From contig OW804097.1 in assembly GCA_942159475.1 (NCBI GenBank), positions 6,973,685-7,037,684 of the forward strand: 64,000 nt of DNA, written 5' to 3'. The DNA is from Sthenelais limicola (lineage: Eukaryota > Annelida > Polychaeta > Phyllodocida > Sigalionidae). The notes under the pieces are model-generated. The model was not told where the DNA came from, did not search any database, and saw only the letters and a program-made list of their open reading frames with translations. This document shows positions 9,773 to 63,866 of the stretch, in pieces. The position numbers were made by a program, and so were the translations under genes. Position 1 is the first letter of the stretch. Each line of letters opens with the position of its first letter.

Positions 9773-11272
9773 TTACTTAGGAATAGATCCCCATGATCTA
9801 GCTACACCAACAAGGCAGTGCCTGTACTTGTGGAGTAAGGCAGGAGAACCAGACACTTCATCATAAGCTGCCAGTCCCTGGAAGATGGAGGAGGGCAGCA
9901 GATGGTAGAGCAGCCTGACTGGTGAGAGAAGGAGGTGAGCTACGGTGGGTGAGAGGGCCGTTGTGTAGCAGGAGGCAGCCACACCATCAACAATGATGTT
10001 ACCAGTTGTAGTGTGGGGGCAGTACATGCCCTGTTTCCACTCCATGCTCACACTCTTCACTCTGGTGGGCTTCAGTTCAGTCTCTGTGAAAGATGTAAAC
10101 ACAATGTCCCCAGGTCTGATGTGCTTTGCTGGAACAAGGTTACCAAGTGTACCAACATGGAGGAGATGACTTCCAGACAGAAATATCTCTTCACCAGTCT
10201 CCAGTTGAACACCAACACAACACATGTTGATGTTGGCATTGCCATGACTGAACATGATGACAGGGGAATACTGCAGGGATCCAGAGTTATCACATGTCAA
10301 CACTTCATCACCAATACAAAGCTGGGACATGGTCTTCTCTCCAGTCTTGGTGATCACCTTCCCTTCTCCACTGAAACATTCTCCAACTTCATCCAGGATG
10401 CATTTAATTTCCTCCACTTTGCTCCTAATAATAGCTTCTGTTCTTTCTTCACCAAGAACAGTTGTGTATTTGCTATCCTTTGTAAACTTTTTCTTTAGGT
10501 CTGTTGCATGCTTATCTAGCTTTCTCTTCATAGCTTCAGTAGTTCCAAATTTTTGCAGGCTAAAAAGCCATGTCTGAAGACGTTCACATATTTCAGTTGA
10601 AAGCTTTTCTTCTAGTTCAGACTTTCTGATTTCTTCTGGCTTAAGGCTAATGGTAGTTAGTCGTTTCTTTGGTGATGATTTGCTTTCTTCTAGGATATGT
10701 TCTACTGTCTCATAAAAGAATCTGTGGTTCTGGGTCAGAAATTCATAGAAACGCCGGTCATTGACTGTCAGTCCAGAGTCATCACCATCATTTAGTTTTC
10801 TACTTAGGTGTTTTTCTATCTTAGTGCAAAGTGCATCCACTTTGTATGTACCTGCGGCCTTGGCAGAAGGTAGAATATCTGTCTTTTGAAGGGCAGCTCT
10901 CAGTGTATCCCTTACCTTATTACTAAAATCTGGAGTTTTGTTCAAACGTAGCCTTATCTCCTCACGCCTTTCTACAGCTATCCTCAGTATCTCATTGGTG
11001 TATGGAGTTGATCCTTGCTCTATGTATATCCCAATGATGGATAAGATGATGCAGTGACGCTGGATTTCAGCCTGTATCCTAGACTTTGTGTTATTGTCAA
11101 CAACAATAAAACGCCCACCTGCTTTGTTTTTTACACAATTATCAAAGTAGGAAAATTTCTCCACTTCGGTCTCAGTAGTAAGATATTCACCAATGGTGTG
11201 CTCTTGTAGAATAGTGTCTCCATAAGTTGCTACGAAAACACAGTAGCTGAATAACTCTTCTCCCATATCAGT
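9773..11272 (-). CDS. Last exon: GIMAP G4/G5, helical segment, Hint domain
   Basis: A single 1.5-kb exon starting after TTATTTCAG. Numbering from the Met at 11266, residues 9-20 (CVFVATYGDTIL) carry the GIMAP G4-type T-x-G-D motif, and residues 51-60 (GRFIVVDNNT) match the G5 region. Residues about 85-295 are charged and probably helical, with no recognised domain. The Hint domain starts at Cys297 (ECFSGEGKV, base 10378). It continues with IGDEVLTCD, LSGSHLLHV (block with the conserved His) and GNIIVDGVAASCYTT, the classic Hedgehog C-terminal signature, to about residue 460. The residue before the catalytic Cys is Glu instead of the usual Gly, and the T-x-x-H Thr appears as Ser. A short tail ends ...SWGSIPK. 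Confidence 0.85.
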   Translation of the reverse strand, partial: TDMGEELFSYCVFVATYGDTILQEHTIGEYLTTETEVEKFSYFDNCVKNKAGGRFIVVDNNTKSRIQAEIQRHCIILSIIGIYIEQGSTPYTNEILRIAVERREEIRLRLNKTPDFSNKVRDTLRAALQKTDILPSAKAAGTYKVDALCTKIEKHLSRKLNDGDDSGLTVNDRRFYEFLTQNHRFFYETVEHILEESKSSPKKRLTTISLKPEEIRKSELEEKLSTEICERLQTWLFSLQKFGTTEAMKRKLDKHATDLKKKFTKDSKYTTVLGEERTEAIIRSKVEEIKCILDEVGECFSGEGKVITKTGEKTMSQLCIGDEVLTCDNSGSLQYSPVIMFSHGNANINMCCVGVQLETGEEIFLSGSHLLHVGTLGNLVPAKHIRPGDIVFTSFTETELKPTRVKSVSMEWKQGMYCPHTTTGNIIVDGVAASCYTTALSPTVAHLLLSPVRLLYHLLPSSIFQGLAAYDEVSGSPALLHKYRHCLVGVARSWGSIPK

Positions 11273-14200
11273 CTGAAATAAGAAATGAGTTGACTAGTCC
11301 TTGTTTCTTATTCATTGGCAAATGGCACATGTGTGGCAAAGTATGTGAATGATCAGAAAGTAATCATAAGTACTGTCCTTAATTAAAACAGTGTGTTGAA
11401 TAATCAGTTTTACTCATAATCATTCATCAAAATACAAAGTACAATGTGAAGTGATGCTCTTGACCTATTTGGAATATTTATACAGTGATTCAACAAGAAT
11501 GTTCAGTTATGTTTATCAAGGATCATGTATCAAACAAGGACAATTTCAATACTTATCCTGTTATATTATAGGAAGTATGTGGAAGAAGAACGTCTGGTCA
11601 AAGCAATGACTTTGTTGCAACTAAGGTTTTTTCAGTAAAGCGGTGGTCACCCATGTGACCGTGCATGCTGGCCAGCCACACACTGTGCGGGGTCGGGATG
11701 GGGGGTGATTACTACACCCTGTGGGGGGTGAATATACACATATACAGTAGTATACTATAAATAAGCGATCTAATAATATGAGGTATAACCTATTCATAAG
11801 CTCCCTCCCCTCCTTTTAGATCAAACATTTGTTTAATCTACGAGACAGTTAAAATTACAGTACTGAATACTAAGGTTTAATTAAAGAATTATTTGATCGG
11901 TCGGTAGTACCCAAACTTAATTTAACATAAACATGGAATATTAAAAAAAAAGGCGGTAATTTGGCCTTCACTGCAAGGGTTTTCAGGCCCGCTTCTTGCA
12001 GTAATGCATGCATAGACAACTTACGCGACTGACTAAAATATATCGAAACATCTAAACTACTGAAATCTTTAGATACGCCCATGGGCGATTGTCACCTAAA
12101 GGTTCTAAAAAAATTAAACTATAAATATAGCTTTTGAATTAAGGTAACTTCACAAATCATTACATAACTTTACCTAAAGATACACAGAAAACACATAAAT
12201 CAATTCTCAAGCTCACAAAGAGCTATGTCCTTGGCGTACCCCCTATAATTCCATAAAATACTAAAGGTTTGTTCCGCTCCCCGATAAAGCAAGCATTGCA
12301 ACAGTAACACATTTAATGATTGGTTCAGAGAAATTCAGAATCAATGGATTGTCAGCAAAGTAAAAGGTTTGTCTAAAAAGCAGGCACTGTAATAAAGTGT
12401 TCAAAACAGATCTGTTTCAACACAAACGGGTTACGAGTAAGGTAATGTTAAATGCAAATATGGCTCGACTTCTCAGAGAAAGAAATTGTTAGTATGTAAC
12501 ACAGCAATGAGTCTATGAGGGAATGATTATCAAAATATAATGATAGCCTCTATTTTGTTTTATGTCTTTGTTTCTTTTTAAAAATTTCAGCTGAGTGAAA
12601 TTATGTAGTTATATACTATTCTCTTTCTTAGCTGATATGGGAGATAAACTTTACAGAATCATAGTCAACACATACGTTTAAATTCATAACAATAAATCAA
12701 ATACAGTAAAAATAGAGAAACCCAAGTAATAACGATCACCCAGGCAGCATCCACTGCTACAGAATATGAGTCGGTCGGTGAGTAGCTCATAAGGAGTGGA
12801 TTGTAAACACAAGCACTCAACAAGATGTTCCAATTATGACCAACTTTTTTATTGCTAAAGATCTCCCTCACACGCTCTGCAACATGAAGGAGCACAGGAG
12901 GGAGCGTGGCACTATCCTTGATAGCTCACTACCAAGCATGAATCATGGGTGTGGGGCCCATGCCACAAGGATGTATAGCAGAGTCTAGCATTTCATCATA
13001 GACAATACACAAAAAATCTTTACAATCTCATTCAAATCTCAGGGTTGGCGGAATCTCTATATTAATAAAATGAGCATTTTGAGCCTAAAACTGCTATCTT
13101 CTCTGAAACCGCTGGCCAGATCTCAATTATATTTCACATGCACATTGCCAAAGATGGTGCCGGACTATTCCACTATGTTTCATTAACAAATTAGGGTTGG
13201 AAAGGGGTTAGAAATGGGTTTACATTGAGCACCCCCTTCCAGGGCCCCCAGCACTGCCTGAAAACAAACCTATCAGTGCCCCCACACCAGGTTTCTGGGT
13301 CACCCAAAGCATGACGTCTTGGATGGGCACATCGTTGCTTCACTATGGGACGGGAGTTGATATATTTCCACCAAAAAGAGCATCGTCAGAGTTGAATCAG
13401 TTCATAAACTATTGTTTGTGATCGTCGAGCAGGGGGAATCTCTTCCCCTCTCTCCTCCTCCTTCAGAATTTGTGTTGAAAACCTGGCAATTTATTCAGGT
13501 TTGTCCTGTCTTTGTTTCTAAGAAGGTTTAAAACCCCCGTGCGACTCATTCCGCTATTCATATTTGGCATTATATTTCTAACAAATTAGGGTTAGAAGTC
13601 AAATGAGGGTTAGAAATGGGTTTACATCAAGCTCCCGTATCCTGGGGCCCCAGCGCTGCCGGGAAAACAAATCCCTATTGGTCCCCCTTATAGGTCAGTG
13701 CACCCTAGATACAGGGAAGGGGCAGAGGCAGGGAAGGTGGTATACAAGGACCCTAGATACAGGAGAGTGGCAGCTAAAGTTTGTCAAGGGTTTCACAGTT
13801 CAGACCTCTTCTTTCTTTCTGTCTGTGTCTCTCTGTCTGTCCCTCTCTCTTTCTCTTTCTTTGCCTCAGTCTTCAGCACTCTGTGTACAGTGTGTGAAAT
13901 TAACTTTTTTTCTTTGCCCGCTACGATAGTGGGTGAATGAGATTTACCCACCCACACACAAATTTATCTGCCCACTAATTCAAATTACCTGTAAATGAAA
14001 GAGGGAGCGGGAGAAGGAATGTGAGAGGGAGAGGGAACAAGAGAGGAAGAACAAGTGGGAGAGGGAACAGGACAGAGACAAGTACAAGGCCCACCCACAC
14101 AGAATTTTACCCACCCACTAATTACCTCACAATGAAAGAGGGAACGGGAGAGGGAGCGGGAGAGGGATTGGGACAGGGACAGGCAACACAACAACAGCAC

Positions 14201-17200
14201 AACACTGAACAGTAACTAATACAAGCATCTAAACAGGATTCCATTTGTGGTATGTAGATACTAAATTAAATAGAGACAACTTGAAAGAGAAAGATAGTGG
14301 GAGAGGGAACAACAAGAGATGAGGATGTGGGCCCCACTGTTCCTCTAGCAAATCCTGTGCATAGCACGGGTATTTGCTAGTACTCATTATGTAGGAATTA
14401 TCATCGGATGATTCCGGGGCATTGTGATGCTCACCAGTGACAACAGAGGGAGTGACAGCTCCCCTCATCTCCTCTCCCCGACACCAGGGGACCCCTCCAG
14501 CGTGCGACACCATCACACGTCCCTCTCCCACTTCTCCTTCAGCCTCCAGGTAGTTCACACACATATACCCCATCGGCTCCTTCTTCCAGCGTGTAACTCC
14601 CTTTTTGGCTCGATATCCCAGCCCACGACATCCATACTGGGCCGTTGGTCTGGACATCAGTACTACCAACTTGGGTGAACAGAAAGTGAGGAATTACGCA
14701 CACCATCATGCCGAGAAGGACAAGAAGCTCAAAGAAAACCCCTCAGCATGAGGAAGAGCACAAGGAGGGCTCCCAACACGAGGAGCGTGACCAACAGGAG
14801 GACGGCAGCCACGTTAGCGACCAGTCCAGCGAGGTGCAGTTTAAACCACCAAAGAAACCCTTGGTCAAGTCACTATACGAAGACTTGGCAGGAGTATCTG
14901 GAGAGAGGGGTCGAAGAGGGGGAGAGAACCATCACCTCCCAAGTCACCACCGCACTTGCAGCACAAACACGAGGAGGAGACGGGGGACCGCAGGCAGCCC
15001 GGTCACTCCTCCAACAGCCGAGTCAAGAAGTGGATATCAGACTCTAGAAGGCGCAGCTCGTCCACTCCAAAAGTAATCAGAGGACAAATGTACGCAGATG
15101 ACTTTATAGAGAGAGAGATTGATCGCCAAAGATTCGCTCACCAGTTACACGGTAGGGAAGACATTATTACGGATATACACAACGCTAAGATCTCCCCTAA
15201 ACCCTATATGTACGTGTACAAGGAGGGGGTTCAAACTGTGAAACAAAAACTAGAGGGCCTCACATACAACGAGTACCTCAACGGTTTCCTCGCCCTACTC
15301 GATGACAGCCAGGGAATTGCTGACCCAGACGACTATCCCCACCTCATGTATCATTTACGCCAAGTGACAAAAGATAGCCTCGAGCGGCCATGGCCCGCTG
15401 TAAGGAGATGGACCCAATATATATGGGACATGATCGAGGCTGGCAAGATCTCATGGTCAGATAAAGTTGCAATACAAGAAGAGAGAATGAGGATCTGCCT
15501 CACAGGGGGAGGCATGAACAACGCTGCCCCAGAATCCAAAGACACTCAGTCGAAGAGCTCTAATGACAACAACAGATGTGATAACACAGGGAACGGCATT
15601 GAGGCAATATGCCGCCCCTATAACTCGAGGGATGGATGTACACACAGTGGTGACCACAAGGAGTCAAATATTACTATGCTACACGCCTGTGCATAATGTA
15701 ATTCTGTAGGTAGGAGGACGCATCACAGTATAAGAGATTGCCAAAAGAGACTAAGACACCAACAGCAGCAGGCTGATGGTACATACGTACCTAGGACCAA
15801 CCAGAACTCGAGCAACAGCAGCAACAAGAACAATGTGAGTAGCAACCACGATGGTTGATCACACAATGCTTCAAAAAACGAGTAAGTGGCCAATGTGTCA
15901 AGTCGACAGGCCTACCAAACTCTTTAAGCACCAGGAGGCCTATACCTACTAAACTGAATATTACTGGATGGCAACAGCTGCTGTCAAAGTCTACCCAAGA
16001 CCAAGAGATATTCGACTTCATCAGATTTGGGTTCCCCACTGGCTACCTGGGCCCAGCATCTAATAATGCGGGCGCTAAGAATCACCCCAGTGCCACGAAA
16101 TACGGAGACAAGATATACCAGTTTGTAAAGAAGGAGCTTGACCTCAATGGCATCATAGGCCCGTTCATGCAGCCTCCTTTCAAGCAATGGACTCACACGT
16201 CACCTATCATGTCCTGCGCGAAACGAGACAGTGATGCACGAAGAGTGATAATAGATCTGACATTCCCTGAGGAGTCATCTATTAACAAGTACATTATTAA
16301 AAATTCTGTGTGGGGCGTGCAGAGGGAGCACTCTCTCCCCACAGTGGAAGATCTAGTCAGTCACCTTAGGAAGGTTGGGACAGGGGCATACTGATTGATA
16401 TTGCTCGTGCTTATAAAAACTTCCACAGCGACCCCCTGGACTGGCCCCTGCTATGCCTAGAATGGCGAGAGGTATGGTACTGTGAAATCACCATGCCTTT
16501 CGGTAGCAGGGGCTCCAGTGCCCACATGCAGAGAGTGGCAAACGCTATAGTGGGCATGCTATGTAGGAGAGGCATCAGGGCCTTCATGTATTTAGACGAC
16601 CTCGCTCTTGTTAGTGACTCCCTAACTGAAGCAAACAAAGCATACGCCTGCGTAAGGGATACACTTGCTACCTTAGGGCTCGTCGAGGCTGTCGACAAGC
16701 TACAGCCCCCTAGCCAAGTGGTCAGGTGGCTAGGCATAAACGTTGACGCGCATGATATGACTCTATCCATCCCACAGGACAAGGTAGAACAAGTGGTGTG
16801 CTTAGCAAGCAAGTACTTCAAGAAACGATCCATCACAAAGAGAGAGCTTCAGTCGATCATAGGCTCCTTCATACACGTCAGCAAGTGCATACCACCAGCA
16901 AGACTGTTCATATCACGCCTGCTAGAGGCACTAAGGGGTTTCAATGGCCTACACCTGAACATAAATAATGATATGAAGGAAGACCTCAGGTGGTTCCAGG
17001 CATTCTGTAGTGATTGGAACGGGGTGGCCATGATCCCTGACACATATGCAACCAAGGTGTATCTATTGGACGCATGTCTGTCAGGAATAGGAGCTACTGA
17101 TGGGCAGTATGCGTATGCACACCGCATATGCCCCTCAGACATGGAGTCCGAAAACATATCCGAAGTACAGGTACTTAACATCGCCGTAGCACTGCACACG

Positions 17201-20200
17201 TTCGTGTCAGAACAAGATAAAGGATCACACATTCACATCTTGTGTGACAACATGTCCATGTCAAGTGTCCAAGTATTCAGCACTGGAAAGGGAAAGAACC
17301 GTGCCATGATCGCGGCAGCACGCATGGCCTGGATGATCCAGGCCAAATACAACTTAATGATCAGTTATGGACACATCCTGGGGGCAACAAATAATGTTGC
17401 AGACGCCCTTAGTCGAGCCCACCTTGGGGAAAAACAACTAATTGAGTCCAATAGATGGGTTGATCATTATTCGCTTAACACTGTACCCCCATGTACATAC
17501 GCCCTACAACCATGCCTTCTTACTTTCAGGGACTCTGCACGAGGCGCTAATAAGGCAGGCAGAGCAGACACAGGGGCAGGCATGGTCTGAAGGCACAAAG
17601 GCCAATCGTACGTCGGCAGTGAAGGCATATCTGTCATTTGCACGTGACATGCAGTTCGACCCTCAGCGACCGCTAGTCGAACATGTGTGTGCGTACATCC
17701 AATCTGTGGCTAACAGGACCCCATCACCAGGCGACACCTCACCAGGGCTGATGTGGTAGTCCATGATGAATACGTCACCTTGGACATCAAGGAGGCCAAA
17801 ACATGCAATCAATCGTCCAAAGGAGGTCAATCGGGCTAAATGCATGTGATGATAAGAGACTGTGCCCTGTGGATAAGATAAGATCTATACTACGCCAGCA
17901 GCCCACCAAATCAACACGCCAACCGCTTTTCAAGTTTGCAGGATCGCTGAGACCCATCCCGGCAACTTTCGTGGCAAGAAAATGGAAGGCACACCTGGTG
18001 GACAATAATGTGGAGGCTAGTGCCCTATCGCTACACAGCCTCAGAAAAGCTGCGGCCACCACTGCCTTTAAAGCAGGGGCCTCAGAGACAGAGGTCAAAC
18101 GACTGGGGGGCTGGTCATCGGATGCATTTCAGATATACATGCATACCGACCAGTCTAAAACCAACTCAAGGCTAGTGAATGCCATGACCTCGAGCCAGCC
18201 ACCACATGGTCCTATGCGCACGGACAAGCGCACTGGCTAACATTAATAACAACAGATAATTCATATATAGAAACTCTAACCCTATGTCAACACAGGGACG
18301 CAGAACTGAACTTACCATAACAGTAATTCACATCTGGAATTGATGAGTTTCCCTTCATATAATGCCTGACTTCCAGCCATACATAATTAAATTACACTCC
18401 CCACCTGGCTCGCCACCATACACCACTCTATTTCTCTTACCCTCCCTCCTCTTCCCCCTCTCCTTTCTCTTATGGCTTTGGCCTATATTAATAATATCTA
18501 AATATTAATTAATCTTATGATATCTAAGGTTAATCAACATGGTAATCAACCAACATGTAATTACCTAATCAATTATCCATTATGTAATACCAAGGGTAAT
18601 CACACTCATAATTCATTATACAATAATTATTGATGTTTGTCTGCCATGTAACATATACCATTCCCATGTGCATTGTTCGACAATAAACATCAATTTCCCA
18701 CACTCCATCTCTGTCTGTTCACTGGGGAGCAAATTCATAATGAAATGATAAGAGCGCCATATTTAAAGTCATGTTAAATGTAAACTCGATATCTCCACTT
18801 GATTCACGTGGCAACTTCATGAACATGGAGGTTTGTACCAAATATTTCACAGCATTAATTTCCAACAACAATATGGAGCAGTTGATCTCAGGGCGCCTAC
18901 CTCCAGTGCCATCAAACTTTGATATTCTTCTTGACAAAATCTTGATGCTCCAGACTGCACGTGGACAAACACATGTACCCCAGCTTGCATAAACCTGAGT
19001 ATCTTTAATACAAACACAGACAAATCAAACATGCAGACATAAAACTACACTTCATCCACAGAAATATATTCAGAAATTCAAAATAGACAGATAATTTGTT
19101 ATGGGAGGCAAATGTTTACTCTTCCTCAAGGGTTTGAACATATCCCCTAAAAAAAACCTAGCCACCTGCTCCCTACAAGGAGAAGATAGTTGTACTCATG
19201 GGTGAAATAAATGTTCAAGGGCTTTTCCCACGCTTTATCACACAGAAAACTCAAAACTCACCCCAAATATGATACTTGCAAAACACATTTCTCCCTGTTC
19301 CTCATCGGTGTCAAAGATTCCAGGCGTGTCCATGATATTAATGATAAAACCATTGTATTGCAGCTGCCGAACTAGAGTAATCTTGGTCTGAGCCTCTAAA
19401 CTTACAAGAGAGTCAAACTCATACCGCTCGAGGAGAGAGTTTCCAGTTGCACTTTTACCCACGCCAATTTTTCCCACCAGGACCACATTTATCACCTGGG
19501 CCTTCACAAGATCCTTCCTAGAAGCAAGGGAGTTAACATCAAACGCCAACCGTTTGGTGCACTGGACAGGCTGAAAACATGATTTGGAGTCAGGGCTGTA
19601 TAACGTTATATTCAGACGGGGTCAAATACTCTGTAAGTAAGTACAGACCTACCCCGAATTCTAGGTGGGAGTGAATATTCACCGAGACGGTCAAGGGGCT
19701 GGAGCCCCGCGACTGTCATGGGTGAATATTCACGATGCCGAGAATCCAAGGGCTGTTTTGTGTTTGTTTCACCCCACACACATAACTTATGTAAGATTAA
19801 CATGATCTACAGCGATTTTGAGGAATGGATAGTTAAATAATTATGTTATCTATATGGGCTGAGCATATCAAGGGTGAAATAAAGGCGTAAATATGATCAA
19901 GTCACATGTGGGCTTTGTTCAACTACTGAATCATGCAACCAGAGAAACTCAATACAGATCAATGGTCTAAAACGTACTTCACACACTTTCTGCATTAACG
20001 AATATGGTGCATTTTACATGTGTATTCAGGAGAAGGGGACGTGTGTTTGCAGAACATGTATATGGATACTGCATGGATAGAAGTGAGCAAGACCCAATGG
20101 GATAGGTGTCACCCTCTTGGGGCGTAATTTGGAACCATTTAAGCTTACAATCTGTGGTTGCTCGATTTTCGATATTCTAATGTAACAGTGATGGACCAAA

Positions 20201-23200
20201 TTACATATTGACGATGTTGCAAAGATATACCAGCCAATATACAGTATTAAAGTCCCTTTAAACATACTAACTGGGTTCATCACCAAATGTTCCAACATAT
20301 TTTCATCTACTGGGCTGTTGATGAGCAAGGCAGAAATTCGCGTTTTTGATCTCAGAGTGCCCTTTGCAATATGCATCTCGTACTCTTTCAGCTGGTCTGC
20401 GATTTTTCTTTGAGTGTCTTCTAATTCAGGCCACTGTAGAGGGTCTTTGAGACAGGGTCCAGTGTAGAGAGGCGTTGTTTTGAAACATTTTATCTCTTGG
20501 TCATATGCGTATAACGTTAGGTAGTTCTTCGTGAAGTCAGTCAAGCATTCTGTCTCCTCTACAGATCGCTTTCGACTTGTTACTATTATCTTCTTTGGTA
20601 TGAGATGAACCTATTTGCAATGGAAATGGGATGATGAATAACATATTTGAGTTAAGTAAATTCACATCATGGTATAACTGATATGCATTAGTTATTAATA
20701 TAATACACCGGGGATCAGAAACAAGCAATTAATGCTTTAGACTCCTAACAAAGAACAGCATCCAGATCGAGCCAATTTACATAATGAAGTATTTTTCAAT
20801 TCAATTCAATTAAAATCAAATGGTGTTCTACCTTAATTTTGCTTTATTTTGTGAGGAAATAGAGTTTCCCTCCCTAGTGCCACCAACACTCCATGCGATT
20901 TAAACTCGCTATAAGTTCTCACCAATTATTGTTTACTAATTTTAAAAGTAAATATGGAGAGCCGTGTTTTATTATGGCATCCTTAAAAGTCGGTATTCAT
21001 GTCCTGGCTTCAAGCTCCTACCAGTTCTATGATAATACATGGAGGATCATTTTATATAATTATAGAAATACATTGATGTGAATGTAATTAATTTCCACAT
21101 ATATTATGAATACGATATAAACGAATTTGGAGCACAGGTCCCCTATAAACCAATGTATTGTATGGTGACAACATATTCGGGCTTATTCCAGTGGGAATTT
21201 AGATATAAAGACAAAAAGTCCTCCCTTCATTAGAAGTTAAGAATCTATTCTATTACTTTATGATAGTTTTTCAATTAATTCTTATTTTGTTTATATATTT
21301 CTATGTGTCAATATTGAAAATTGCCCGAAGGACATAGCTTGTTTAGGCAACCCCCAACTGATCTCTGATCATATCTTCTGTATTTTAGAACCAGCGTTCA
21401 TAAAACTATATATGTATGTAGCGCAAGGCAATCCTGCTCTTTCCGGACATCAACATTTGGGTTGGGTATTCTGAGGGTAAATATTATTTTCTATTTCGCG
21501 GCAGCATTAACTGCCCATGATAGACGCAGGTCTGGTGTGTCTACCGCATATCACCCATGGCATATATATCTAGAAGAGATGGCTGAAGCTTACCTCTATC
21601 AACCGTTCTGGTAAGCTCTCAGTATGGTCCTGTATAAACTCAAAAAGCTTTTGTGGTTTCCGTTTTTCAGGATAGACTAGTGTCGAACGGTTTGGAAAAT
21701 CAGAGTTGGTTTGTCTCCTGAAATCATCCTCCCATGATTCTTGGAAGCATTTCCCACTAGGTCGTTCCCTACACAAACAAAATTAATATTTCTAGTAAAC
21801 TCGTTGACAACGACAAGGAATCCCCAGAGTTGCACTCATATGATCAACTATGGTTATTACATAATTCATAGTTTTCATAGTTGCTGGCCGTTTATTATAT
21901 TTGCCCCTATTGACAGTCAGTTCTTTAGACTAAAGTATTGCAACGGGGAAGTGTGATAACCCACGACTTAGAATTAACGGTAATCCTGACCATTAGAGTC
22001 CTGTCAGAAATTACATGGACATTTCACCCAAATGATTATATCTAAGCAAAGGCAGGAAGTCAGTATAGTAGTGAGCCTGAAGTGAGCTCCAAGTCAAAGA
22101 TTATGTTGGCGCATGATCCAAATTCTGGTCAGTCAGCTAATTGGGTCAATCACCAACCGTAAAAGAGTCCACTGCTTTACCACCCACGATATTTTATCAT
22201 TTGACTATATTGATATTGTGCATCTCAAATTGCTTGGACAGATGATAGAGAAGAAATTACTTTCAATCTTTTGAATTACTGTTCTGTAGTAACTATACTT
22301 CCAGACAGGTGGAAGCACTAGAGGTAGGTAGCAGTATTCTGAAATCATTTAGGGGGAGCAGTGTGGGACTTATCCAGTGGTCGCATATCAGGGCCTAGCT
22401 CAGTATATGGGTACGAGGATGAGGGTGTGTATGTGTGCGGAGGTAGGGTGATATATTTCCAGGGCCCTGGCACTGAGGATAACGCATACACAGATCGGTT
22501 ATTATAAAAATAGTACTTGGAAACTGTATTTTTCTGGGAGCGATGGTGGGGGTGGGCGGGTCTTTGGTGGCGAAGTTGATGCACAATTTCATATGCATAC
22601 ATGTTTATTTTCAGCTTCAGTTTTTATTTTTGCTAATATTCAAAAGATTCAAATGTCTGCATGTCTCTTCCTATTGCTGGGAGGTTGTTCTAATGGACAA
22701 TTTTTTTTTATTAATTACAAATTGAAAATTGATTAATTTGTCATTGAGACGCTATATGCCTACATTTTCTCCTAAATCACCCCAAATTCTAACATATATA
22801 TTAGAACTGAGTGTACCATTTTCCGTATACTTACCTGCTAGGTGTTTTGGTAGTGTCCAGTATAAAGTAAGCCTTTTTTCCAACGTATTCTGCTTCAATA
22901 CTATGCGTTGCATTTTTGTCACCAGATGGTGAGGCATTCTTGATTTCCTGAGTGAGAAACGATGGCATTTTAATAAAAAATAAAATAAATACAATAACAA
23001 AATGATCTCACCACTTAATCATGATATTCAAATCACATCTATTTTGACAATTACATCATAGACATTTAACAAGTTCCCGCCCACGCTGACACAACATTTG
23101 ATGGAATATCTTCATATATATTTTTACCGGACCAAAACACATTTTTAGGTTCTATTCTCATGAAGCTACAATGACTTGCTCATGATTGAGCCTTCATGAC

Positions 23201-26200
23201 AATTTAATGTTGAATTTTGTCAACCGACATACACATGTATGACTAGAATTCATCATTTTTCCTATTTACCTTTGTTTCAAATACAGACACCAAAGTATAA
23301 TGCTTATCCTTCTGGAACAGACTGACGTCCCTCAATATCTTCATCTCCTCCGTCTCATCATCTTTCTTCATGAGGGCGTTCATGACAACCTCAATAGACA
23401 GTCCAAAGGCATGAAGGAGATCTGACCATTCGTTGATTGGGTGGAATTCAATGCTAATACCTTTTTGTCTCTTCATGTTTCTCTCACAGGGAACGATCAA
23501 TAGGGATGATTTAAGGCACTCATCTATATGTTCATCTTTAATAGCAAATTGTATTTGTCAAATTAGTTAAATTGTATTAGTTAAATGTGTAGAAGCTCAC
23601 GTTCATCTCACGTTGGATACTGTAGACTTGAAAACACATGTAGGATTCAGTATAGATATTATTATGATGGGATGTTAGTATGGTATCTTTGTTATATTCC
23701 AGTATATATATGTTTGCATTTAATTAATCAGTTTCATATTACAAAAATTCTGATTCTAAGGCATTGGTGGCGCCCCCTCGCTGTAGCTCCGGGTAGTCCC
23801 TACCCATAAACCCTCACCTCTTCCTTCTTCTTCCTCAACATCAAACAAACAATTATTATTCTTCAACTTCTCTCGTAAGGGGTTTCTATTTCCCACCCAC
23901 CCACTACCAAACCAAAAACAACACTACCGGTAGCTGTATACAGACGAAACAATTTCCATTTTATTATCTATTTCATTCTACTCAACAAAATGTCAAATGC
24001 CCACATTAGTAATACAAATTTTGCTTTCATAAATTTTATATCATATAATGTTTAATCAAATCATTATACATTGTTATTAAGAATAAATTATGTCGTTGAC
24101 CAGGTTTGCCTTATCTATTATTCAATTTTAATTTAATTCATTTTAATTTACATGGGTCAGATTTTCAGAAAATGTACAACTCAACTTCGCCAATCCCCTC
24201 AAATAATCCAAATTCCAGATGAAAATACAGTTCAAAATGCAGTACAATCTAACCAAACAGATTGCTAGAATCAATGCAAAGCAGAATATACTCGAATGTA
24301 CCTAGTATTGACCAAATTGCAGCCTGATTTAGCAGAATTTACTCAATGTGTACAGCTGCCAATTGTACATTTCTGAAAATCTGACCCACATCTCAATCCA
24401 TTCAGTTGGGTAAACTTGTGATCCATATGTCGAAAGAACTTACACAGTGTTTTGGATGGATCTGGCATCTGATTCGCTGGTATGATAACTCTAGTGGGAC
24501 TAAATACACTATCTGAAAGAAAGTTTAATATCACATGTATTCGGAAGGCATGTACTATTTCCAGAGAATACTCCTTTTTCCATTACTATTTTCTAGTCGA
24601 CCACACTGTATTACTGTATCCGTCTGGATTTACATAACAATATATAATTATCTTTATTAAGTTTAAAATATGTTACCTTGTTGTTAGAGAACATTATAGA
24701 GAATGGGGCCATGCCATGTATTTTCAGTTTTCCCCAATATGAACAATGCATCTTTGAACTTCCTTCCTTAAATGATTATTGGAAACATACATCGTTACAT
24801 GTGCTAAAGTATTAGACAACGAATTAGCCAATTCCGTTGGTCTTTGCCCTCGGGAATAGAGAAAGTGGTGACTAATACTTAAAGGCAAACGCTACTATCT
24901 AGTGGAAAATGAAAATAAATGTCATTTTTCTGAAACTTTGGTATTTGATTCTTGAAGTGTTTCAGGTCATAAGGATGGAAAAAAATCATTGGGTCGCCAT
25001 TCTCATTTTTGAATTACATTGCTTCAAAACTTGGTATCTCAAAAAAACCAATGAGGACCAAAAGGGGGGCCCATTTTGCAGTACCTCGACTTCATAGTTC
25101 ATATTTGCTATTTATATTCACTCAATTTAAGTAAAATTAACAGTTTCAGAGACAGTATTATTTGGCCAATAATTCTATGCCTCTTTTCTATAGTGTGCAT
25201 TGTTATTTTTATTTTGAAAACAACAAATACATAATGTGAATTTTAAATTAAAAACTCGAAAAACTCAATATTTTTCACCATTTTTATAAAAACATTTTTG
25301 TTTCCTCCCCACTGAAAATAAATGTCATTTTTCTGATTCTTTAGTATAGGATTTTTGAAGTATTTATGTTCTTAAAACTGAAAAAAAATTAATGGGTCAC
25401 CATGCTAGTTTCTGAATCATGGGGCTTTGAAACATGGCTGACAACCCAAAAATCTGCTGCTTTCAAAGTGTTCTATGTTTTCTAAACATCAGACAGACAG
25501 CTACAATTATTTTTCTAACGCGATGACATACATTTTGTTCCCTATATATGTGTAGAATATTACCTGCACTATATGTGTAGAAAATTTTGGGACATTTGGA
25601 ACATCGATTTTTGTTTTATTCCCAAAACCGTGAAAGGAAAATGCAGCATTTCCCAATAGACTTGCATGCTAATTGGGTACAACTGAGAGTACCCATAGCT
25701 AGCTCTGTTTACCAAACATGTCTATTTAAGACAGCTATAAAAAAAATCTAACGCAATGACATATATTTTTATTTCCTTTTTATCTGTAGTATATAACATG
25801 AACTGTATGTGTAGAACATATTGGGACAGTAGGAGTAGCCCTTAATTGTTTGTGTTATTCTATAAAATGTGAAAAAATAGGCCGTTTCCTCATAGACTGC
25901 AATGCTAAAGGAATAGTGCGTAAAATGCCCGTAGATTTGGTATATGGTAAAGGGGGGCGTGGCAGTGAATAGTAGCGTTTGCCTTTAAATAATGTTAATA
26001 CTATTACACTTACAACAGTAAATTCGAGTAAGATGTTCTAGTTCCATGAGCAAACTTTGCCTTTGATCAGTGACATCGTTGACCTCATAAATATCATTCA
26101 TACATCTGACCTTCTTCTCCTTGAGGAACTTAATGGCATCTTTGCGCGCATCAGTAGTTGCCCAGACTTTCTCAACATAGTCAACAAAGGACGGATGTTC

Positions 26201-28926
26201 TCCTGGGAGTAACTGAGAACAAATCTAACACCTCAGGACATGTTAACGCATTGTGATTAGTAATTTCAGTGTTTCTCTGATATTATCGATTTAAATAATT
26301 TTATGAAAATAATTATCCTGGCGGACATATGGACATATATGATAGTATCTGATCATGTATATTTAACTCTCTTTACAATTTAAGTGAATAATTCATATAA
26401 GTTTTGAACATCTTGTATAATGGAGAATCAACCTACACCTTTCTGCAACATTTCTTTTGGTGCTGAAAAACAAAACAATATGGCTGTTAGTCGACTGTAT
26501 CAGTACTGACCGCTAATTGGAGGCATTACAAAGGAAACGCCTCAAGACATATTATGAGATGTAAAGGCAGGGTCCCCATGTGGCGTTTTCTATTATTTCA
26601 TTTTACAAATGTGTTATTCAGATTATTTGCTAGAAAAGACAAACTCAATCTTTCATCGGTTTTCATCCACCCTACCTATCATCGGTAACATTAATCTAAT
26701 AATTATTGCAAGCAATAGTGGTTTTCGGACCTGCTTCGATTAATAGTAGTAATTTGTATACCATATATATTATCATTGCAATATAGGAGAAACAATTAAA
26801 CACCTACGTTGCATTAGACTAACAATCTGAGGCTGTCCACTTTCCAGAACACACTGCAATATGTTGTAGTATTGTATATAGGATCCTCTCTGTAGGTAGT
26901 GAAGTAATCTCCTCACTCTATCTGGTCCCTGCACAGATCTCTGTAAACATAGTGTTCCATGCTAAATATGAACATGCGCCTAGATAGGGGTACGCTGTCT
27001 TACGTGCAAGGATAGTGTACAATATGACCAGTGGTTATGTCTTCTAAGTAAATATTTAGCCCTTCTTATCTACATACATGTCTCTCTTGGAAATATCACA
27101 TATATAGGCCTATCAATCACATATATATATCAGAATATCGCTGTCTCTGTGAAGGCGTTTGACGGCAAGGGGAAAACCATTCCTATAGGGATAAACTATT
27201 GAATATTGATCCCATTATCATAATATATTGAAGATTAACATGTCGTTTTTCGTTATAAATTTAGGGTCAGCAGATGCGTTTCTGAATAAAACTTTAAATA
27301 AACAGTTGAGGTCGATCAGAGAATCAGATGACCCCTGACTTTTACAATATAATTGATATATTCATAGATGATACTTGGTTAGAAAAGGGTAATACTTTAA
27401 TGGATAATAAATATTAAGTTTTTATCTTTCAGTGGTTATAAACGCCTTACAACGTTATATTTTCATGTGGGACATGCAGAGCAGGACTATTTGGGGAAAA
27501 CTTATCTCAGCGAGTTTTCTTTTTTTGATAATTAGGCTCTCCAATTATTATTGGCTACTTACCCATGTTCTGAGTTCCATCGACTGAATTCAAATATTTG
27601 TACGGACCTTAATTTACTTACCCATGTCTCAAGTTCCCACGTCCGAATGAACTTCATTGCCACCAGCTTATTGAGGAAGAAATCATCAACGCTCATGTTT
27701 TGAACAATATCCATCCAGTTCCCCACAATAGTGTCTTTGATATCTTCAGTGAGGATTGTGTTCTTAGTCTGCAATGACATGTATATTTACTGCAGTGAAT
27801 AATGCGCTATACGTTGTCTGATCATTATCCTATGTAGTTGATAGAGATTGCTGCTCCCGACAGTAGCAGCAACCTAGTGAACTCGTAGTTTGTCTCAAAA
27901 GATATTTTAAGATTTGTTGGAATTGAATGACTTTCATAGCCACCAAGAACAAACACACTATCTGTAATAACATGACATTTCTATTATAAATGTTTTTCAT
28001 AGATACATACATTCATTGCATTACTGTTATTGTTATTGTTATTATAATATCTGATACCATTTTGCATATATTATAGTGAATTAAATTGATTTCAAAGCAA
28101 GACATAATGATGGCCACCATTGAGGGATTAACTCCATGGTGGTTTGTTTCCTGTATTACTATGTAAAAACGTGGTACAGCACGGCTTGAAAAACAGAAAG
28201 GGAGAAGACCGGCTCATGGAATCAAAACATTATTACAAGTTGAACAAAAGAATTTGTACAAGCATGTAACATCAGCAAAATATTGATAAATTCAGTCCTT
28301 TAAGTCATAATATGAGTAGATCTGTTAAAATTATATGATGACATAATAGCTGAGAAAGCAATTTTATTTGTATAATGTGTTACTGTCAGACTTTATTTGT
28401 TTATGAAATCATTATATCATTCTAAAAATGTAGTAAAGTATTCATCCCGTCATCCATGACCAATATTACTTTTCAAATGAGATACCTCTTTGGTTGGTTC
28501 CGTCATGTACAATATGTTGAATTCCTCATCGTCCTACAAAACATGGATATTTATAACTGTGTATACAAATATCAATCTTCTTTACTACCGCATGTCTTGA
28601 CTAAGGTAAAATGTATTGGGCGGTTATAGATAAATGCATACAAAACCAAACCATAATAAAAAAAGGAATTAAGAATTATCACATGACAAATGCGAGATTA
28701 ACTGGACCAATTATCTGAACAATCTACAAATATTCATCTGAACTATTAATTATCTTTTCTTGTTTTAATGCATTAATTATATAATGGGTAAAATCCACGA
28801 ATTTCTGGTGCGAGGTCTGAGACCACCTCAGGCATATTGACTGACTGACACTGTGGGGCTAATGGTGCAAACTCACCTCTGACATAAGATGATGTTGGCT
28901 ACTTGTGCCTTTCCCCAAACGATGTG
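9773..28926 (-). CDS. CARD - unknown region - GIMAP GTPase - Hint fusion protein
   Basis: Hand-built gene of 14 phase-matched exons: 28926-28877, 28533-28486, 27768-27622, 26940-26808, 26462-26437, 26212-26014, 24512-24444, 23535-23270, 22947-22835, 21768-21594, 20610-20272, 19570-19262, 19002-18901, 11272-9773. Every intron has GT and AG and the frame stays open to TAA at 9773. Domains in order: CARD; about 395 unassigned residues; AIG1/GIMAP G domain; helical basic/acidic segment; Hedgehog-type Hint. GIMAPs are membrane-associated or self-assembling immune GTPases, CARDs recruit partners through death-fold contacts, and Hint domains self-cleave. Together this suggests an immune protein that may shed its N-terminal part (inference). 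Translation could start at the ATG at the end of the first exon (MSEDDEEFN...), or the gene may extend upstream into the CARD block at 37634-39962, which is phase-compatible. A DIRS element lies antisense in the last intron. Confidence 0.75.
11280..13180. other. Intron DNA, no exon seen
   Basis: Part of the 7.6-kb last intron of the GIMAP-Hint gene. The open frame at 12665-12895 (minus) has hydrophobic stretches but no usable splice frame. I see no RNA gene or clear repeat structure here. Confidence 0.4.
13183..13690. repeat. Direct repeat pair, about 115 bp each
   Basis: The unit ACAAATTAGGGTTRGAAR...GGGTTAGAAATGGGTTTACAT followed by a CCAG(C/G)GCCCC-type stretch occurs at 13183-13300 and 13578-13690 with about 80% identity by eye. 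It may be the two ends (LTR-like) of a small element or a dispersed repeat. The TTAGGGTTA in it is a short match, not a telomere array. Confidence 0.4.
13985..14330. repeat. GA-rich satellite
   Basis: GAGAGGGA/GGGAGCGGGA-type repeats on the plus strand appear in two blocks, separated by a repeated CCCACCCAC...CCCACTAATT motif (13950-13980 and 14092-14125). The composition matches the elements at 3850-4440 and 43790-44240. The short motif TGCTAGTACT at about 14385 resembles the border of the 43790 copy. Confidence 0.5.
14708..15696 (+). pseudogene. DIRS gag-like ORF with frameshift
   Basis: Two overlapping frames: 14708-15076, a basic, Ser/Glu-rich N-terminus (MPRRTRSSKKTP), and 14956-15696, with DDYPHLMYHLRQVTKDSLER and WPAVRRWTQYIWDMI. 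A Cys/His cluster (CRPYNSRDGCTHSGDH...HAC) near the end resembles the zinc-finger-like region of DIRS Gag. The frame change between the two could be a decay mutation or programmed slippage. I favour decay, because the RT frame is also broken. A remnant with the same gag segment is at 52.7-52.8 kb. Confidence 0.65.
15855..17590 (+). pseudogene. DIRS reverse transcriptase / RNase H, frameshifted
   Basis: Frame 15855-16394 holds the RT N-terminal part (LNGIIGPFMQPPFKQW...RRVIIDLTFPEESSIN). A one-base frame change at about 16390 moves to the frame of 16493-17590. The first catalytic Asp (LIDIARAYKNF) lies just after the break. It continues with PFGSRGSSAHMQR and YLDDLALV (active-site Y-x-D-D). 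An RNase H domain follows (LLDACLSGIGA, Asp of CDNMSM, and ATNNVADALSRA). The enzyme copies element RNA to DNA in intact relatives; this copy should be inactive unless the shift is bypassed. Confidence 0.8.
17442..18240 (+). pseudogene. DIRS tyrosine recombinase, internally deleted
   Basis: N-terminal core-binding part (TKANRTSAVKAYLSFARDMQ) in the 17442-17759 frame, a broken join near 17750-17800, then a catalytic part in 17803-18240 with HSLRKAAATTAF (H-x-x-R), RLGGWSSDAF and the Tyr of IYMHTD. The segment expected to hold the first catalytic Arg is missing, and the length is well short of intact DIRS recombinases, so the enzyme is dead. The family integrates the circular element by site-specific recombination. 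Confidence 0.75.
18250..18900. other. DIRS 3' flank and intron, no exon
   Basis: Likely holds the DIRS 3' non-coding end: TAATTA-rich short repeats at 18490-18640 and AATAAA at about 18681. No gene on either strand. Confidence 0.35.
18901..19570 (-). CDS. Two exons with GIMAP G1-G3 and the following helix
   Basis: Exon 19570-19262 (103 codons, phase 0-0) contains VVLVGKIGVGKSATGNSLL (G1/P-loop in the exact AIG1 form) and IMDTPGIFDTD (G3). Exon 19002-18901 (34 codons, phase 0-0) contains QAGVHVFVHVQSG followed by SRFCQEEYQ. This is the equivalent of the SPGPHAxLxV...RFTxEE stretch that follows G3 in GIMAPs, with the Ser-Pro-Gly-Pro core diverged to QAGV. It joins in phase to the G4 motif in the last exon, so the G domain is complete across three exons. 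The acceptor at 19003 (TATTAAAG) is weaker than its neighbours. Confidence 0.85.
20272..26462 (-). CDS. Unassigned region between CARD and GIMAP (seven exons)
   Basis: Exons 26462-26437 (26 nt), 26212-26014, 24512-24444, 23535-23270, 22947-22835, 21768-21594 and 20610-20272 are all phase-matched and open, and together encode about 395 residues. The content is soluble and charged, with helical patches (KDAIKFLKEKKVR, EMKILRDVSLFQKD, RKIADQLKEYEMHI), no membrane segment and no motif I recognise. The piece around residues LLPGEHPSFVDYVEKVW could be another helical-bundle module, but I cannot name it. It links the CARD to the G domain and may be an oligomerisation or sensor region (inference). 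The micro-exon of 26 nt needs the donor GGT|GTAGGT to keep frame. Confidence 0.65.
24153..24388. mobile_element. GGGTCAG MITE, copy 1
   Basis: Inverted ends GGGTCAGATTTTCAGAAAAT and, at the right, ...ATTTCTGAAAATCTGACCC, over about 27 bp, flanked by ACAT on both sides (4-bp target duplication). It is about 70-75% identical by eye to the copy at 31824-32058. It abuts the donor side of the exon 24512-24444 within about 60 bp. Confidence 0.75.
24879..25988. mobile_element. piggyBac-type non-autonomous element
   Basis: Perfect inverted ends AGGCAAACGCTACTA / TAGTAGCGTTTGCCT are flanked on both sides by TTAA, the piggyBac target duplication. The roughly 1.1-kb interior has no transposase. It holds two diverged internal direct copies: AAAATAAATGTCATTTTTCTG at about 24912 and 25316, and a 'gcaatgacata...atttttttcc..' segment at 25520 and 25750. 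It sits in the intron between exons 26212-26014 and 24512-24444. Confidence 0.75.
26808..27768 (-). CDS. CARD 2 (two exons)
   Basis: Exon 27768-27622 (49 codons) ends after the third helix: DIVQNMSVDDFFLNKLVAMK then FIRTWELETW. Exon 26940-26808 (133 nt) supplies helices 4-6: RVRRLLHYLQRGSYIQYY, then VLESGQPQIVSLM. The spacing and the Leu/Ile/Val pattern fit a CARD: an interrupted first helix, 'xxLxxxxFIT..E', then the 'LLxxLxxRGxxxxxxFxxxLxxxGQxxLxxLL' block. The intron position (phase 0) and second-exon length and end phase (133 nt, leaving a C) are identical to CARD 1 at 37634-38125, so the two arose by duplication. CARDs bind other CARDs to build signalling assemblies. Confidence 0.75.
28486..28926 (-). 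CDS. Two small exons preceding CARD 2
   Basis: Exon 28926-28877 (50 nt, phase 1 to 0, acceptor CTGTTATAG, donor GAG|GTGAGT) and exon 28533-28486 (48 nt, phase 0-0, acceptor TTTTGTAG, donor GAG|GTATCT). Together they read ...HHLMSE then DDEEFNILYMTEPTKE, an acidic leader to CARD 2. The ATG four codons before the end of the first exon would give a natural N-terminus, but its start context (CTTATGT) is weak. The exon is also open upstream in the phase expected from CARD 1 (C|CA). Confidence 0.5.
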
Positions 28927-63710: not shown

Positions 63711-63866
63711 CTATAAGCAATATATTCACAGATTGTAAAATGTATCTATATCTATTTATTTAAGTATTCATCTCGGAAAATATTTGAAAATATTCATTAC
63801 CAAATACTTACATATTCGATGATGCTCAAAAGCTTTCATTTCCTTAATTTATTTGTTGCCACATAC

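Follow-up and report, generated by a model that had tools for sequence, protein, structure and literature searches.

A tandem family of predicted AIG1-type GTPases with a C-terminal Hedgehog-type Hint domain, in which homogenisation between paralogs is confined to the Hint cassette

The window, by which we mean the whole 64,000-nucleotide stretch analysed (G000:C4:6973685-7037684), carries on its minus strand, from position 28885 to 9773, a gene of 13 exons and 12 introns, the spliced model of which encodes 1,121 amino acids without internal stop codons (Table 1). All 12 introns have GT-AG borders, and the phases join across the whole spliced model; the donor after the CARD, C|GTAGGT, fits its phase. 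Single open reading frames revealed AIG1 and Hint, the rest of the gene was resolved through comparison of the window and eight further loci of the same genome (1.13 Gb in 161 contigs), and the exons at 22.9 and 19.0 kb as well as a 26-nt mini-exon were revealed only by this comparison. The eight loci are a subset of the 32 AIG1 matches in the genome, and weaker matches in the cluster region, at 6.62, 6.74, 7.16, and 7.34 Mb, were left out.

Tandem paralogs possess the same exon set in the same order, with splice sites at matching phase, and because this arrangement recurs within one genome, the exon chain is not a product of chance. The search recovered each of the 11 exons sought in the C4:6.60 Mb paralog, where acceptors lay on the predicted base for 11 of 11 exons and internal donors for 9 of 10; this phase agreement was partly imposed, since the search demanded phase while tolerating 60 nt in either direction. 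Fewer exons were detected in the remaining paralogs, and some of their splice sites are shifted. Two candidate features were rejected, namely the open reading frame at 24343-24582 as an exon, as it is a repeat that lies on opposite sides of X region exon 2 in two paralogs, and an apparent second P-loop at 21.7 kb, which is in the wrong frame. The last intron measures 7.6 kb and holds a retroelement, in which a tyrosine-recombinase-like open reading frame was also recognized by eye; a match in the C4:7.2 Mb locus represents a related copy.

Table 1. Exons of the minus-strand gene, its Hint cassette, and the retroelement in its last intron (window positions).
Feature	Position	Strand	Basis or remarks
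Proposed start exon (MSE)	28877..28885	-	9 nt; ATG TCA GAG, then donor GTGAGT; in phase; proposed from the window copy
Exon 2 (DDEEFNILYMTEPTKE)	28486..28533	-	Conserved in the C4:6.60 Mb paralog
CARD exon a	27622..27768	-	Paralog comparison, spliced frame, CARD profile matches
CARD exon b	26808..26940	-	Paralog comparison, spliced frame, CARD profile matches
26-nt mini-exon	26437..26462	-	Conserved in the C4:6.60 Mb paralog; counterparts in two more, by eye
X region exon 1	26014..26212	-	Paralog comparison, spliced frame
X region exon 2	23270..23535	-	Paralog comparison, spliced frame
X region exon 3	22835..22947	-	Paralog comparison, spliced frame
X region exon 4	21594..21768	-	Paralog comparison, spliced frame
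X region exon 5	20272..20610	-	Paralog comparison, spliced frame
AIG1 exon 1: P-loop, switch, DTPG	19262..19570	-	Pfam AIG1 (7.7e-18, open reading frame of the P-loop exon alone)
AIG1 exon 2	18901..19002	-	Present in 8/8 other loci compared, in one of them partly
Last exon: AIG1 C-terminal half, helical stalk, Hint and tail helices, stop	9773..11272	-	Pfam Hint 6.5e-36; predicted fold
Hint cassette, codon of Cys921 to stop, homogenised between 8 paralogs	9773..10378	-	Divergence analyses
Retroelement with reverse transcriptase, in last intron	14200..18300 (approximate, from open reading frames)	+	Pfam RVT_1 7.7e-11 for 16370-17590

The spliced protein is organized in the order CARD, X region, AIG1 GTPase, helical stalk, and Hog, the latter composed of the Hint domain and a helical tail. 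Pfam profiles assigned residues 513-726 of the spliced protein to AIG1 (4.7e-31, 108.2 bits with a cut-off of 27, profile positions 2-206 of 212) and residues 917-1082 to Hint (4e-35, profile positions 9-184 of 213); the C-terminal half of AIG1, searched as part of the last exon alone, stayed below the cut-off (3.4e-4). The AIG1 motifs GKIGVGKS (P-loop), DTPG, and TYGD (G4-type) are in the spliced frame. By its whole domain and its motifs, the protein is classified as an AIG1/GIMAP GTPase, with GTP binding as a predicted property. The original prediction had placed a CARD, the GTPase motifs, and a Hint domain in a single phase-consistent exon chain, and GKIGVGKSATGNSLL, DTPG, T-Y-G-D, and GNIIVDGVAASCYTT are indeed all present in one spliced frame with consistent phases and no internal stop. 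A profile search of the spliced protein bore out its AIG1 and Hint domains but not its CARD, which was absent at E <=0.1.

The CARD (residues ~20-112, split over two exons) is the weakest part of the architecture. With the final exon borders, the window copy matched PF00619 at an E value of 0.058 and 13.8 bits, compared to a cut-off of 23.9, while an earlier provisional exon join gave 0.0017. Three of four sequences, including that of the window, matched this family at E <=1, the best at 1.5e-4, and a profile built from the CARD sequences found one solved CARD, NOL3 (4uz0, E value of 0.0019). Both CARD exons were found in four of the nine loci, window included, and the second CARD exon alone in a fifth; in the stretch searched in the other four loci, neither was found, apart from one 7-residue chance match. 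We therefore assign the CARD weakly, and mainly through the paralogs.

The X region comprises 364 amino acids (residues 122-485) and is 39-66% identical to the window copy in five paralogs. Searches with six members revealed no convincing Pfam match, with five families each hit by one member (best E value of 0.034), and no convincing match in the PDB, where a single hit had an E value of 0.16. A search with X and the first AIG1 exon returned nine proteins, all with AIG1, at a query coverage of 13-23%, and no full-length relative of the protein was found at E <=0.001. Given the proposed start, no signal peptide was recognized by eye, and thus the protein is probably cytosolic, if this start is right. 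At E <=0.1, the full protein had four Pfam matches, and the Hedge ligand domain was not one of them.

Aligned with Hedgehog, the Hint domain retains Cys1 (Cys921), the TxxH histidine, and the SCY cysteine, but carries Ser instead of Thr326 and His instead of Asp303. Cys1, His at the Asp303 position, S-x-x-H, and the SCYT cysteine are identical in all eight Hint-bearing members of the cluster and recur in 7/7 sequences of a second alignment, which consists of the window copy and six of the seven hits from one search (Pfam AIG1 is listed for three of these six) and which also has conserved tail positions after the Hint in all seven sequences. In P0007, the seventh hit and not part of this alignment, Ser replaces the SCY cysteine and His occupies the 303 position, both as judged by eye, so that this His is not special to AIG1 fusions. 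Whereas Hedgehog proteins have a conserved Gly directly before the cleavage Cys (PMC13060885), this residue is Glu in the window protein and six further cluster members (7/8) and Ala in the remaining one.

The genome contains 13 Hint matches, eight in the cluster, three elsewhere, and two at Hedgehog-like loci. At the Asp303 position, His is present in 11 of the 11 Hints outside the Hedgehog-like loci. Of the latter, the Hint at C2:55.04 Mb is complete and has Asp at this position, and the one at C1:111.1 Mb is a fragment that does not include the site. The three non-Hedgehog Hints outside the cluster (C4:112.70, C4:112.83, and C6:106.2 Mb) differ strongly in protein sequence. Two of them can be aligned to the AIG1 portion of the last exon, with approximately 28% identity over this exon, and neither X nor CARD was found in the short stretches searched near the two outside Hints tested; for the third, the AIG1 exon is 21 kb away and the link is presumed.

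In the AlphaFold model, the Hint was predicted fairly confidently (block mean pLDDT 68-89), while the model is of low confidence outside it (mean pLDDT 61.8), tail helices included. Foldseek returned as first match of the predicted Hint the Hedgehog D46H mutant structure 6TYY and as second 1AT0, with a TM-score of 0.90 to the target and 31-33% identity to the two structures, and on this model the Hint fold is present. Because the Pfam Hint match ends at profile position 184 of 213, the tail that follows is not Hedgehog's sterol-recognition region.

The earlier idea of self-cleavage thus gains support at the level of sequence, with the thioester residues conserved, and at the level of fold, with 6TYY and 1AT0 as best matches. 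In fly Hedgehog, the D303H exchange was reported to leave structure and activity intact and to widen the range of accepted sterols (PMC9163320), and D46A, which affects the equivalent position, to block cholesterol transfer but not thioester formation (PMC13060885). We infer as likeliest a self-cleavage that probably leaves a sterol on the CARD-GTPase; the lipid or sterol linkage itself, which the original prediction had offered as one outcome, is plausible. Alternatively, the Hint might cleave by hydrolysis or by attack of a small thiol or alcohol, and its tail would then just release a soluble CARD-GTPase. We consider this unlikely, albeit a serious candidate: the missing Gly at -1, the replaced Asp303, a tail unlike Hedgehog's SRR, and the faster cleavage of several Hedgehog D303 mutants in the presence of DTT (PMC9163320) agree with it, whereas the sterol transfer retained by D303H in the same report and the conservation of tail positions after the Hint argue against it. 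It is rather improbable that the Hint has lost its cleavage activity and now has a structural or binding role. The loss of Gly at -1 and P0007, devoid of the SCY cysteine, would be compatible with such a role, but neither the cluster nor the 7-sequence alignment shows any change in Cys1, S-x-x-H, or the SCYT cysteine.

The most unusual feature of the family, absent from the original prediction, is that paralogs have been homogenised in the Hint cassette only. Divergence was analysed for the eight Hint-bearing loci of the cluster (28 pairs), with dS determined in 40-codon windows and saturated pairs, which gave no dS, left out of the means. Mean dS was 1.06-1.55 before the Cys column, 0.70 in the window across it, and 0.05-0.23 after it, up to the stop codon. 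Saturation affected 10 of 28 pairs when the upstream part was taken as a whole, compared to none over the Hint, where pairwise dS was 0.07-0.16. Nucleotide identity climbs from 0.63 to 0.90 within approximately 90 nt around the Cys codon, is mostly 0.89-0.99 in the cassette, and drops over its final 60 nt; after the stop codon it is mostly 0.35-0.52, although 84-bp repeats following some of the stops may disturb the alignment there. Nine other exons tested, each in four to eight loci, were near synonymous saturation, with a mean pS of 0.64-0.79. GC3 is 0.51-0.56 in the cassette versus 0.34-0.40 upstream.

Phylogenetic signal differs likewise between the two parts. Distances in the cassette do not track the upstream distances (Mantel r 0.14, p 0.29). 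In the four-gamete test, 111 of 231 informative site pairs in the cassette (0.48) were incompatible. When the cassette was simulated on the upstream protein tree with equal mean divergence, none of 1000 runs reached an r so low or an incompatibility so high (mean r 0.88, mean incompatible fraction 0.20). The upstream tree is well resolved, with three of five inner branches starred, and the Hint tree, with none of five, is not. However, when three upstream clades were examined by AU tests on the Hint alignment, none was rejected (p 0.10, 0.33, and 0.17), and a fourth upstream group appears in the Hint tree without firm support.

The low dS of the cassette, its raised GC3, and its scrambled phylogeny are read together as gene conversion between diverged heads, and as cause we infer repeated conversion confined to the Hog cassette. 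Its sharp limits may simply reflect flanks that are too diverged for conversion and thus halt it. Constraint on the RNA or DNA sequence, rather than conversion, as the source of the low synonymous Hint divergence would fit the coincidence of cassette limits with protein domain limits and the upstream clades left standing by the AU tests. However, constraint acting along the upstream tree should keep the distances correlated, which none of the simulations reconciled with the observed r or incompatibility, and both the raised GC3 and the strongly different protein sequences of the three non-Hedgehog Hints outside the cluster also argue against it, so that we regard constraint as improbable. Among studies on GIMAP or Hint and gene conversion, judged by titles and the openings of abstracts, none described conversion of a Hint in such genes.

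Further irregularities were seen at the end of the cassette. The paralog at C4:6.636 Mb, the ninth locus, has AIG1 and lacks the Hint, and the last 60-77 nt of the cassette are kept. A unit of 84 bp that codes for the last 28 residues is repeated past the stop codon at the C4 loci at 6.596, 6.931, 7.322, and 7.375 Mb, with four further copies at 7.322 Mb.

With conversion as the preferred reading of the cassette, we propose that the product of the window gene belongs to a family of intracellular proteins encoded in tandem, which would be processed as follows. Cys921 would convert the preceding peptide bond into a thioester, which would be displaced by an alcohol. The likeliest alcohol is a sterol of the membrane, which the His at the Asp303 position would activate. 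The Hog tail would thereby be freed, and the CARD-GTPase head would keep a C-terminal lipid and reside at the cytosolic membrane face, where CARD partners, for example caspase-type adaptors, might use it as a platform controlled by GTP. While the heads diverge between genes, gene conversion would keep the Hog cassette alike, and the family would therefore consist of variable heads on one shared, self-removing processing tail. We consider this proposal as a whole, comprising a Hog that acts as in Hedgehog, a lipid-ended CARD-GTPase head, and a converted shared tail, to have slightly better than even chances. The Glu or Ala before Cys1, the Ser at position 326, a tail unlike Hedgehog's SRR, the Ser of P0007, a CARD below the Pfam cut-off that was not found in four of nine loci, the outcome of the AU tests, and the negative search for a full-length relative count against it. 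Its individual elements, namely gene conversion as the cause of homogenisation, cleavage, sterol linkage, membrane location, CARD signalling, and an immune role, are putative, while the gene structure, the domain content with its weak CARD, the conserved catalytic residues, the predicted Hint fold, and the homogenised cassette are observed.

Vertebrate GIMAPs anchor in membranes via hydrophobic C termini. In the proteins described here, a sterol would supply the membrane anchor in place of such a C terminus. It is tempting to speculate further, though we hold this only tentatively and judge it less likely than not, that the Hog cassette represents a shared, interchangeable, self-removing constant region, copied from Cys to stop by gene conversion between immune genes with diversifying heads, and that its sterol choice is relaxed by a natural D303H. 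If so, a single processing and anchoring machine would be kept working beneath many heads, and these genes would form a variable-head, constant-tail immune family whose constant part cuts itself off.

The original prediction had also held that no described protein combines all three domains. This was wrong, as CARD, AIG1, and HINT were reported together in lancelets (PMC12373286). That study calls architectures with CARD and HINT "unique to amphioxus among animals" and states that, besides lancelets, only a few multicellular fungi combine the three domains. The lancelet proteins contain the same three domains in the same order, with an N-terminal CARD and a C-terminal HINT, although the CARD of the window protein is weak, and they belong to an expanded immune-related family; the likeness to the window gene is one of domain architecture. 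In the part of the study considered here, an X region, D303H, or conversion of a cassette are not mentioned. In the COX1 of the genome analysed here, five of eight AGA/AGG codons align by eye with Ser of mammalian COX1, and at conserved sites ATA corresponds to Met and AAA to Lys. This is the invertebrate code of protostomes and lancelets and argues against cnidarians, sponges, and echinoderms; a cnidarian origin, at first suggested by the two Hedgehog-like loci, was accordingly rejected. The animal is a bilaterian, and as genome size and the C-terminal part of COX1 appear spiralian, it is very probably not a lancelet. In that case, CARD+AIG1+HINT is not restricted to amphioxus within animals.

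AIG1-type GTPases with a C-terminal Hint or Hog, as in the window gene, were further reported from the coral Acropora (PMC3723955), the snail Biomphalaria (PMC7053062), and a fungus, in GmGIN1 (PMC2362128). The excerpts of these three reports considered here do not mention a CARD in the same protein, and that on Biomphalaria lists CARD-AIG1 and AIG1-Hint as separate architectures. The finding of the three domains in one lancelet protein also argues against a very improbable alternative, in which a gene for CARD and X and an adjacent gene for GTPase and Hint were duplicated together. The CARD exons, not found in the stretches searched in four of nine loci, would fit this alternative, but every exon of the window gene joins in phase in one open frame.

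The window protein resembles the Hog part of Hedgehog in its Hint fold, Cys1, the TxxH-like motif, and the SCY cysteine, and differs from Hedgehog by the absence of a Hedge ligand domain and, by eye, of a signal peptide, by its tail, and by His for Asp303, Ser for Thr326, and Glu for Gly(-1). What appears to be new here is the putative conversion of a Hint cassette between diverged heads and the occurrence of His for Asp303 in every non-Hedgehog Hint of this genome. If our proposal is correct, Hedgehog-type autoprocessing extends from secreted signals to intracellular immune GTPases. The family would also provide natural cases of D303H, which in the parts of the literature covered appears only as a laboratory mutant. 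With its sharp divergence step at the self-cleavage site, the family lends itself to a clear test of why homogenisation affects a processing domain and the protein that it processes diversifies.

Elsewhere in the window, pieces of an NLR-like gene are located at 58.2-62.9 kb on the minus strand. They include a NACHT match (4.3e-11) at 62902-62354, a weak NLRC4_HD2 match (0.0056) at 60856-60452, and an LRR-like open reading frame at 58515-58210 recognized by eye, all on the minus strand, and are adjoined by a minus-strand open reading frame with a Sushi domain at 63409-63759 (2.9e-07). A dispersed repeat on the minus strand, common to the C4:6.60 Mb locus, occurs at 24.15-24.43, 31.8-32.1, and ~53.8-54.2 kb, the 53.8-kb copy being identified by eye. 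On the plus strand, a long array of near-repeats at 33.2-33.9 kb codes for runs like YWRRLLEE in several frames, and the 32-34 kb block has a GC skew of 0.34.
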